Assembly (NCBI GenBank): GCA_947448725.1
Contig: CANFOM010000003.1
Location: 99,094-163,093 of the forward strand
Length of the DNA stretch: 64,000 nucleotides
Reading direction: 5' to 3'
From: Bacteroidota bacterium
GTDB taxonomy: Bacteria; Bacteroidota; Bacteroidia; Chitinophagales; Chitinophagaceae
Notes under the pieces: model-generated
Database searches by the model: none
What the model saw: the letters and a program-made list of their open reading frames with translations, nothing else
Told to the model about the DNA's origin: nothing
Translations under genes and position numbers: made by a program
Shown here: piece after piece, positions 36,043 through 38,138 of the stretch
Layout of the letters: every line of letters starts with the position of its first letter
Numbering within the stretch: position 1 is the first letter of the stretch

Positions 36043-36963
36043 ATGTCATTAGTAGTAGTAGGATCCATGGCCTTTGATGCCATTGAAACCCCATTTGGGA
36101 AAAGCGATAAAATAATTGGAGGAGCGGCTACCTATATTGCATGGTGTGCTTCTAATTTCACTACCGTTAAGCAAATTTCTGTTGTGGGAGGTGATTTTCC
36201 CCAATCTGAATTAGATGCACTTGCTGCTCGAGGTGTAAATTTAGAAGGCGTACAAATAAAGAAAGACGAGAAAACTTTTTTCTGGAGTGGTAAGTATCAT
36301 TTAGATATGAACACCCGTGATACCGTGGAGACCCAATTAAATGTATTGGAAAATTTTCAACCTGTTGTACCAGATAGTTACCAAGATTGTGAAATTTTAA
36401 TGTTGGGCAATTTAATGCCAGGCGTTCAAAGTAGTGTGATTAAACAAATGAAAAATCGTCCTAAATTAATCGTAATGGATACGATGAATTTTTGGATGGA
36501 AGTAATGTTGGACGATTTATTACATACCATAAGTTTGGTAGATGTATTAATGGTGAATGATAGTGAAGCACGTCAATTAAGTGGAGAATATAGTTTAGTG
36601 AAAGCGGCTAAAAAAATTATGGCTATGGGGCCTAAATTTTTAATTATTAAGAAGGGAGAACATGGAGCACTTTTATTTCATAATACTGAAGTATTTTTTG
36701 CACCGGCCTTGCCATTAGAAGATGTGTTTGATCCAACTGGTGCTGGAGATACTTTTGCTGGTGGTTTTGTAGCTCACTTGGCAAGAACAAAAGACTTCTC
36801 TTTTAATAATATGAAGTCGGCAATTATTGTGGGTAGTGCCTTGGCAAGTTTTTGTGTTGAAAAATTTGGTACTCAACGTTTGACTGAAATTAATGAAGCA
36901 GACATCAAAGAACGCATACAATCGTTCGTTCAGCTGGTTAATTTTGATATTGAATTAGTATAA
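36043..36963 (+). CDS. PfkB-family carbohydrate kinase
   Basis: 306 residues. Ribokinase-fold features: N-terminal 'SLVVVGSMAFDAIETPFGKSDKIIGGAATYIAWCAS' and the C-terminal PfkB signature 'VFDPTGAGDTFAGGFVAHLA', with the catalytic Asp in DTFAGG and the anion hole GAGD. It would phosphorylate a sugar or nucleoside with ATP. The close match of the start to adenosine-kinase-like or bacterial 'sugar kinase' entries does not settle the substrate. The -7 box of the downstream asd leader overlaps its stop codon. Confidence 0.88.
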   Translation: MSLVVVGSMAFDAIETPFGKSDKIIGGAATYIAWCASNFTTVKQISVVGGDFPQSELDALAARGVNLEGVQIKKDEKTFFWSGKYHLDMNTRDTVETQLNVLENFQPVVPDSYQDCEILMLGNLMPGVQSSVIKQMKNRPKLIVMDTMNFWMEVMLDDLLHTISLVDVLMVNDSEARQLSGEYSLVKAAKKIMAMGPKFLIIKKGEHGALLFHNTEVFFAPALPLEDVFDPTGAGDTFAGGFVAHLARTKDFSFNNMKSAIIVGSALASFCVEKFGTQRLTEINEADIKERIQSFVQLVNFDIELV

Positions 36964-36968
36964 ATTTG
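36961..36968 (+). promoter_or_regulatory. -7 promoter box (TAAATTTG) of the asd leader
   Basis: Exact TAnnTTTG match whose first three bases are the TAA stop of the PfkB kinase gene. Transcription would start near 36975, giving a leader of about 165 bases before asd. TTTTG at 36942-36946 is a possible but closely spaced -33 element. Confidence 0.5.
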
Positions 36969-37004
36969 GTGATTCATTAGTTTCGAATTAATTTCGTTCT
37001 CGAT

Positions 37005-37049
37005 ATGACAAAATATAAACATACAAAACAAATTAAGAAACCTCTATAA
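37005..37049 (+). CDS. Candidate leader peptide of asd (14 residues, Lys/Thr-rich)
   Basis: ATG-to-TAA frame encoding MTKYKHTKQIKKPL: five Lys and two Thr in fourteen residues. Aspartate semialdehyde dehydrogenase, the downstream gene, is on the common path to lysine, threonine and methionine, so Lys/Thr codons are what a ribosome-stalling sensor would need. The stop codon lies two bases before GGAAGG, which can pair with one arm of the downstream terminator. Too short for the ORF track. Translation is inferred, and Lys codons are common in this AT-rich genome. Confidence 0.5.
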   Translation: MTKYKHTKQIKKPL

Positions 37050-37073
37050 TAGGAAGGTGCTGATTGTTTGTAT
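37021..37073 (+). promoter_or_regulatory. Antiterminator/anti-antiterminator arms in the asd leader
   Basis: ATACAAA (37021-37027) inside the leader peptide pairs with TTTGTAT (37067-37073), and CAA/TTG extends this stem past a bulge. GGAAGG (37052-37057) between them can pair with CCTTCC (37094-37099), the 5' side of the terminator. These are mutually dependent pairings as in amino-acid attenuators. Confidence 0.45.
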
Positions 37074-37091
37074 ACTAAAAATATATTCAGA

Positions 37092-37119
37092 AGCCTTCCA
37101 AGAAATTGGGAGGCTTTTT
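37092..37119 (+). terminator. Terminator hairpin immediately upstream of asd
   Basis: AGCCTTCCAA and TTGGGAGGCT form a 10-bp stem with one G-T pair and a GAAA loop, followed by five T residues. It ends 20 bases before the asd ATG. It may end the kinase transcript, act as an attenuator of asd, or both. Confidence 0.82.
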
Positions 37120-37139
37120 AAATTAATAAAACAAATAAA

Positions 37140-38138
37140 ATGAAAGTTGCAGTTGTTGGTGCCACAGGGCTGGTAGGCACAAAAATGTTACAAGTATTAG
37201 CGGAAAGAAATTTTCCAGTGACTGAATTAATCCCAGTGGCTTCGGCTCGTTCTGTAGGCAAGGAAGTTAGCTTTAAAGGGAAGTCTTATAAAATAGTAGG
37301 TATGGAAGAGGGTATTGCTGCTCAACCAACGGTGGCTATTTTTTCTGCAGGTGGAAGCACGTCCTTAGAGTGGGCGCCAAAATTTGCAGCGGCAGGCATT
37401 AGAGTGATTGATAATTCTTCTGCATGGAGAATGGACCCTACTAAAAAATTAGTAGTCCCAGAAGTAAATGCAAATGTATTAACTGCCGAAGATTTAATTA
37501 TTGCCAATCCAAATTGTTCTACCATACAAATGGTAGTGGCTTTGCAACCCTTGCACGCAAAATATAAAATTAAAAGAGTTATTGTTAGTACCTATCAAAG
37601 TGTCACTGGTACCGGTAAAAAAGCAGTTGATCAATTAATGGAAGAAAGAAGAGGAGGCAAGTTAGCTGCCGAAGATATGGCGTATAAATATGCTATTGAT
37701 TTAAATGCCATTCCTCAAATTGATGTGTTCTTAGAAAACGGATATACTAAAGAGGAAATGAAAATGGTCAAAGAAACCTGTAAAATTATGCAAGATGATA
37801 GCATTAAAGTAACGGCGACCACTGTTCGTATTCCAGTGATGGGTGGACACAGTGAGAGTGTAAATGTAGAATTTGAAAATGAATTTGATTTAAAGGAATT
37901 GATTGCCGAGCTGGCTGCAGCGCCAGGTGTAGTGGTTCAACAAAATGATGCTGAACAATTTTATCCAATGCCTTTATGGGCGCATGAAAAAGACGAAGTG
38001 TTTGTGGGCCGTTTGCGCCGCGATGAAACACAAGCAAAAACTTTAAACATGTGGATTGTGAGTGATAACCTTCGTAAAGGAGCTGCTACCAATGCAGTTC
38101 AAATAGCCGAGTACTTGGCTTTGAAGGGAATTATTTAA
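37140..38138 (+). CDS. asd: Aspartate-semialdehyde dehydrogenase
   Basis: 332 residues. NADP-binding 'MKVAVVGATGLVGTKMLQVL', catalytic Cys in 'IIANPNCSTIQMVVAL', substrate-binding 'STYQSVTGTGKKAVDQL' and His in 'RIPVMGGHSESVNVEFE' are all present. It reduces aspartyl phosphate to aspartate semialdehyde, the branch-point for lysine/diaminopimelate, threonine and methionine. No other gene of the pathway is adjacent. The 176-base upstream region holds a promoter box, leader peptide and terminator (separate entries), suggesting control by amino-acid supply. Confidence 0.96.
   Translation: MKVAVVGATGLVGTKMLQVLAERNFPVTELIPVASARSVGKEVSFKGKSYKIVGMEEGIAAQPTVAIFSAGGSTSLEWAPKFAAAGIRVIDNSSAWRMDPTKKLVVPEVNANVLTAEDLIIANPNCSTIQMVVALQPLHAKYKIKRVIVSTYQSVTGTGKKAVDQLMEERRGGKLAAEDMAYKYAIDLNAIPQIDVFLENGYTKEEMKMVKETCKIMQDDSIKVTATTVRIPVMGGHSESVNVEFENEFDLKELIAELAAAPGVVVQQNDAEQFYPMPLWAHEKDEVFVGRLRRDETQAKTLNMWIVSDNLRKGAATNAVQIAEYLALKGII

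Follow-up and report, generated by a model that had tools for sequence, protein, structure and literature searches.

A Probable Lysine-Sensing Leader-Peptide Attenuator Upstream of asd in Chitinophagaceae

Results

The asd Locus and Its Leader Region

The window analyzed here, by which we mean the whole stretch of 64,000 nucleotides from a bacterium of the Chitinophagaceae (Bacteroidota), contains asd, the gene for aspartate-semialdehyde dehydrogenase, downstream of a gene for a pfkB-family kinase. The gap of 176 bases between the two genes holds a promoter, a short Lys-rich open reading frame and five arms that can pair with each other (table 1). A previous inspection of the DNA letters (hereafter the sequence-only reading) had singled out a 14-codon frame, the segments ATACAAA, GGAAGG, TTTGTAT and CCTTCC, a terminator and the ATG of asd, and each of these was found exactly where it had been placed. 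The terminator hairpin has 13 pairs (37090-37119); a simple terminator scan did not list it before asd and it was recovered by folding, in which the leader is more stable than 200 of 200 dinucleotide shuffles (z = -3.8).

Table 1. Features of the asd leader and its neighborhood, with positions in the window
Feature	Position	Strand	Description	Support
pfkB-family kinase gene	36043-36963	+	Upstream neighbor	
-33 promoter element	36965-36968	+	TTTG, part of TAAATTTGG at the pfkB stop	Spacing conserved in relatives
-7 promoter box	36989-36996	+	TAATTTCG, Bacteroidota sigmaA type TAnnTTTG	Box conserved in relatives
Leader ORF	37005-37049	+	14 codons, MTKYKHTKQIKKPL then stop; Lys-rich, expected to be near-leaderless	ATG and frame conserved in relatives
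Arm 1	37019-37027	+	ACATACAAA, within peptide codons K-H-T-K; includes ATACAAA (37021-37027); partner arm 3	Arm-swap
Arm 2	37052-37063	+	GGAAGG (37052-37057) plus CTGA, directly 3' of the leader stop; 5' side of the antiterminator, partner arm 4	Arm-swap, folding
Arm 3	37067-37073	+	TTTGTAT; partner arm 1	Folding, arm-swap
Arm 4	37087-37102	+	TCAG, then CCTTCC (37094-37099) and flanks; common to antiterminator (2:4) and terminator (4:5)	Folding, arm-swap
Arm 5	37107-37119	+	3' side of the terminator, with T-run; partner arm 4	Arm-swap
asd	37140-38138	+	Aspartate-semialdehyde dehydrogenase, regulated gene	NCBIfam TIGR01296 asd_B, 419 bits against a cut-off of 324; PF02774

Promoter and Predicted Transcription Start

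The sequence-only reading had placed a -7 box at 36961 and expected transcription to start near 36975. The motif TAAATTTG does exist at 36961, where it arises from the pfkB stop codon and the -33 TTTG that follows; the true -7 box, TAATTTCG, lies downstream at a spacing of 20 nt from this TTTG, which moves the expected start to about 37001. The same arrangement recurs in relatives, for a TAnnTTnG box ending 5-12 nt (mode 7-8) upstream of the leader ATG is present in 89 of 103, and 86 of these 89 box-bearing elements have TTTG (or TTTC/TCTG) 19-21 nt 5' of the -7 box. Since the sigmaA box TAnnTTTG has been mapped at -12 to -5 in Flavobacterium (PMC9723704), the asd leader would start near 37001, and its ORF is expected to be near-leaderless, with a predicted 5' UTR of about 4 nt. 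The conserved promoter sits 5' of the leader, not 5' of asd. Moreover, only 2 of 104 elements have a -7 box in the interval from terminator to gene, so that expression has to pass the terminator.

Distribution and Linkage to asd and dapA

A covariance model of the leader element, R1, was searched against 299 genomes of the family (104 genera) and matched the whole element in 161 of them, representing 69 genera; comparison across the family bears out the sequence-only reading, the small frame being conserved as a peptide, the pairings covarying (see below) and the element being tied to asd. Among the 30 closest loci, all of the same genus, the element is complete in 24, the window included, the alignment columns of the complete genus elements being 89% identical on average, and a 25th is cut by the end of its contig. 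Leader and terminator have been lost jointly in six relatives, in which asd follows pfkB after 1-26 nt. Limnovirga soli and Flavihumibacter are among the named carriers.

Family elements were picked by model score, independently of the neighboring gene. All 104 homologous family elements examined have either asd (92) or dapA (12, identified by TIGR00674 above its cut-off) as the next gene on their strand, and no other gene takes this place; the genes upstream vary in identity and strand. The distance from terminator to gene exceeds 100 nt in 19 of the 104. Several genomes carry asd and dapA copies of the element together (e.g. G205, G102, G277, G395 and G130), and no leader of the asd type lies upstream of dapA in the genome to which the window belongs.

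A broader model, R2, was run on 299 genomes of the order and 346 of the phylum; no homologue beyond the family scored above 50 bits. We also scanned asd upstream regions across Sphingobacteriaceae, Cytophagales and Flavobacteriaceae (Pedobacter, Mucilaginibacter, Dyadobacter, Hymenobacter, Flavobacterium and Polaribacter), where a simple scan, blind to divergent leaders, returned no matching leader. At the level of sequence similarity, the element appears restricted to Chitinophagaceae.

Leader Peptide and Sensed Residue

The peptides were compared in a set of 49 sequences with mutual identities below 80%, the same sample being used for the arm-swap test and the masked folding described below. 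Leader peptides in this sample have 13-23 residues, with a core consensus K-H-T-K-R-[TI]-K-K. Single-base codon differences are synonymous in 66% of cases, compared with 44% expected and with 10-15% in shifted frames, which indicates that the leader frame is under coding constraint and that the small frame noticed in the window is conserved in relatives as a peptide. The conservation of the peptide is in part RNA-structural, because H, T and the middle K of KHTK are encoded by arm 1.

Lys accounts for 26% of leader residues, and its share in the leader frame is 30%, compared with 4% and 13% when the alternative frames are read, an enrichment to be read with the caveat that Lys codons are frequent in A-rich DNA; Thr and Ile contribute 12.5% and 9% of the residues, respectively. 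Lys residues outside arm 1 are kept where arm 1 is altered, as in the peptides KQIKRIKK, KKYSSKK and YTTKRIKK. The sequence-only reading had left the choice between Lys and Thr: the comparison favors Lys over Thr as the likeliest sensed residue, with charged tRNA-Lys as the candidate signal, except in one genus, here called g49. The asd leaders of this genus (L045, L055, L067, L079 and L134) read TNTTIKTIK or similar, consisting mostly of Thr and Ile with one to four Lys, and their codons point to an apparent switch of the sensed amino acid from Lys to Thr/Ile.

RNA Pairings and Ribosome-Masked Folding

In the arm-swap test, the pairing of an arm with its own partner is compared with its pairing to the partner taken from another sequence. 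The three pairings claimed beforehand, namely peptide arm with TTTGTAT, GGAAGG with CCTTCC, and the terminator, all covary in this test, with z values of -7.4 for 1:3, -3.6 (refined -3.9) for 2:4 and -14.3 for 4:5, values from which the kinship remaining among sequences below 80% identity is not fully removed. Five control combinations of arms that are not partners stayed at |z| values of roughly 1 or below and show no covariation.

Arm 2 (GGGAAGG) is situated at the leader stop and forms the antiterminator with the 5' arm of the terminator. Antiterminator (2:4) and terminator (4:5) share arm 4 and are mutually exclusive, and both of them covary. Four loci (L063, L074, L091 and L104) combine CTTCTC in arm 4 with GAGAAG in arm 2, in full Watson-Crick pairing, the terminator taking a G-U pair; this pattern suggests that 2:4 is selected separately from 4:5.

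Folding with the ribosome represented as a mask gave a mean antiterminator pairing of 0.76 when the ribosome was stalled over arm 1, with values above 0.3 in 49 of 49 sequences, and of 0.06 when it was placed at the stop codon, where 3 of 49 sequences exceeded 0.3 and the pairing was lost in 46. The mean was 0.56 when no ribosome was present, and 0.35 under the stalled mask with the middle region shuffled. The competing logic first read from the window, in which stalling lets GGAAGG pair with the terminator arm and a ribosome at the stop codon leads to the terminator, is thus reproduced computationally in 46-49 of the 49 sequences. Equilibrium folding without ribosome still forms the antiterminator in many sequences, that of the window included, and the outcome without translation would consequently depend on the co-transcriptional order of pairing.

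Leaders of Similar Layout before Other Genes

Weak model matches combined with direct inspection uncovered sibling leaders before other biosynthetic genes. In the genome of the window, a His leader, MIIKSHTHHFHLLYKG followed by a stop codon, precedes hisG (L298:1183-1233, on contig C2 of G000, outside the window) and lies directly 3' of TAAATTTG; its arms GGGGTAAGC, GGGCTTACT and AGTAAGCCC have the same five-arm layout as the asd leader. A search of this genome for a His-codon pattern missed the leader, which was recovered by inspecting the region upstream of hisG. His-rich leaders with terminators were found before hisG in other genomes of the family, at L110, L183, L184, L188 and L189 (with HTHHH, HTHHHH, HIHHHH or HIHHH). 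In L120 (genome G323) a Trp leader, MKQVTNKSWWWYSTLRGL and stop, contains WWW and is accompanied by a terminator, 75 nt 5' of trpE (anthranilate synthase component I). Such siblings of the same layout suggest that leader-peptide attenuation is general in these bacteria, which renders the asd case more credible.

Some leaders of this kind were also noted elsewhere. A Lys-rich leader, MMIYKHKSSKRFLPKW and stop, lies before lysA in another family (L180, genome G459), and two more, MTRKLHKSKKHLPNR and MMNNKPYKKDKKRIPQR, each ending at a stop codon, lie before a PLP aminotransferase gene in genus g96 of the family (L178 and L294), with arms of the GGTAAGC type. A possible Val leader, MNNQTQTTSVIVNCKVRG and stop, containing SVIV, precedes valS in another family of the order (L191, genome G548), and MNFIITTTTISTTTTISSCRKVCL with its stop, containing TTTTISTTTT, precedes an aspartokinase gene in another family of the class (L287, genome G923); the best model for the latter gene is bifunctional aspartokinase/homoserine dehydrogenase I, on a partial sequence.

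Discussion

Proposed Mechanism and Its Alternatives

With its coding frame, three covarying pairings, promoter position and fixed link to asd or dapA established by comparison among relatives, the asd leader is, in our judgment, very probably a ribosome-mediated transcription attenuator of the classical type that senses Lys. Transcription would start about 4 nt 5' of the leader ATG, the leader would take up roughly the first 120 bases of the asd message, and a first ribosome would translate the Lys-rich peptide of 13-23 residues. When charged tRNA-Lys is ample, this ribosome would reach the stop codon and cover arm 2, the terminator 4:5 would form and asd, an essential gene of the lysine/threonine pathway, would be off. 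A ribosome stalled on Lys codons would instead cover arm 1 and leave arm 2 free, so that 2:4 could pair before arm 5 is made and asd would be transcribed. If the leader is not translated, 1:3 would be the first pairing to arise as the RNA is made and would enclose arm 2, favoring termination; this step is the weakest part of the mechanism, since for the leader in the window it is not favored by equilibrium folding. The signal that we infer is charged tRNA-Lys, with Thr (and Ile) as its counterpart in one genus.

The alternative that deserves most attention retains the attenuator and changes its signal, which would be Thr/Ile (or His) or else a small molecule acting as cofactor in nascent-peptide arrest. 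It draws on the H and T of KHTK, conserved as strongly as Lys, on the Thr/Ile-rich asd leaders of genus g49 (TNTTIKTIK) and on the fact that asd also feeds Thr, Met and Ile. However, H and T lie in arm 1 and can be kept by RNA pairing, whereas Lys is kept where arm 1 is altered and in dapA leaders that have neither H nor T (KKYSSKK); dapA, besides, belongs to the lysine branch only, and the His and Trp siblings obey the amino-acid rule. We therefore regard another signal as unlikely. A metabolite-binding riboswitch or T-box before asd would suit genes that are targets of lysine riboswitches in other phyla, as both asd and dapA are, but neither the window nor ten related loci gave any Rfam match at gathering score (a relaxed threshold brought only chance-level matches) and the conserved part is a frame of translated type, not an aptamer, which makes this idea most improbable.

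The element could also be a free-standing gene for a small RNA or small protein that has its own terminator and merely adjoins asd, possibly acting in trans like rnTrpL, and it does have its own promoter and terminator, a distance of more than 100 nt from terminator to gene in the 19 elements mentioned above, and members of the genus that lack it. Against this, 104 of 104 elements immediately precede asd or dapA in the same orientation, with varying genes upstream, and the antiterminator 2:4, which would have no role in such a gene, covaries; a free-standing small RNA was in fact our first idea after the genus comparison and was dropped once asd turned out to follow the element at 30 of 30 family loci. 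We hold it to be very unlikely, even if a role in trans may exist beside attenuation. Scarcely credible, finally, is an ordinary terminator of the upstream gene followed by asd with its own promoter, the short ORF being due to chance. Such a terminator would fit this genus, whose pfkB runs in the same direction and stops immediately 5' of the element, but elsewhere the upstream gene is often a different one or on the opposite strand, 102 of 104 elements lack a -7 box in the stretch that separates terminator and gene, and the conserved promoter precedes a leader that has both coding and covariation signals.

Returning to the Lys-sensing attenuator, we consider it somewhat probable that the asd leader is part of a wider regulon of near-leaderless attenuators in Chitinophagaceae, with Lys leaders for asd and dapA, His leaders for hisG and Trp leaders for trpE, and with lysA or aminotransferase (Lys), aspartokinase (Thr) and valS (Val) leaders elsewhere in the family, order or class. 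The asd leader would then stand in place of a lysine riboswitch and would have exchanged its Lys codons for Thr/Ile codons in one genus or more.

Relation to Known Systems

Two Rfam cis-elements are tied to asd or lysine genes, the asd RNA motif of streptococci and the lysine riboswitch; with no Rfam match here, the asd leader belongs to a different RNA class from either. It resembles the classical trp, his and thr attenuators of enterobacteria: its short ORF holds codons for the end product, the stop codon lies at the antiterminator arm, antiterminator and terminator exclude each other, and the gene downstream is biosynthetic. It differs from them in that its ORF is predicted to be near-leaderless and belongs to a phylum that does not use Shine-Dalgarno initiation, its Lys codons are interspersed (KHTKRTKK) rather than in one run, it has five arms of which arm 1 lies within codons, and its targets are asd and dapA.

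The nearest precedent that we found is SEP5 of Sinorhizobium meliloti, a translated sORF that lies in the 5'UTR of an 'aspartate dehydrogenase' gene, contains six Thr and three Lys codons and has been suggested to encode a leader peptide (PMC10117765). Compared by its description, SEP5 is likewise a Thr/Lys-rich leader of a gene that probably acts at the same pathway step, but it belongs to an unrelated phylum, is said to be conserved only in Sinorhizobium and comes with no structure or mechanism (PMC10117765). The rnTrpL/peTrpL system of S. meliloti has a leaderless attenuator ORF of 14 codons, whose short RNA, released upon termination, acts also in trans (PMC10117765); it shares with the window a leaderless-type ORF of 14 codons and differs in responding to Trp, in its alphaproteobacterial host and in this additional action. 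Within the same phylum, structured 5' elements of Flavobacterium psychrophilum, located before pheA, hisG and other genes, bear clues of leader-peptide attenuation (PMC9723704). These elements are similarly absent from Rfam and the same mechanism has been proposed for them; however, the main text of that study does not mention asd (PMC9723704), and our asd-leader model detects no such element outside the family.

In the literature accessible without subscription we found no asd or lysine attenuator described for Bacteroidota, in agreement with the statement of the sequence-only reading that it knew of no Lys/Thr leader for asd in this phylum. As far as could be found, the asd leader thus joins the class of ribosome-mediated attenuation and is itself apparently undescribed. 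Control of the aspartate pathway in Bacteroidota has been little described. In other bacteria, lysine control is usually credited to riboswitches, T-boxes and enzyme feedback. An attenuator before asd and dapA would be a testable regulator of peptidoglycan and of lysine/threonine supply in a large family of soil and freshwater bacteria, and the covariance model can be used to annotate it. The series of codons leading from Lys to Thr/Ile offers natural material on the evolution of attenuator specificity, and the leader itself offers a test of transcription-translation coupling on near-leaderless messages without Shine-Dalgarno sites.

Additional Observations

Several model matches were set aside. 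Twelve matches of R2 (L174-L177, L179, L181, L182, L185-L187, L190 and L286) resemble plain terminators by eye, and four weak matches of R1 (L111 and L121-L123) are terminators without leader. A second match in the genome of the window (L033, G000:C11:44517-44556) is only a look-alike terminator, AAGCCTTCC..GGGAGGCTT, with a near-identical hairpin and no leader; terminators of this sort seem to recur. In five loci of the same genus as the window (L010, L021, L026, L030 and L031), an extra hairpin-rich segment of about 100 nt is present between the attenuator terminator and asd.
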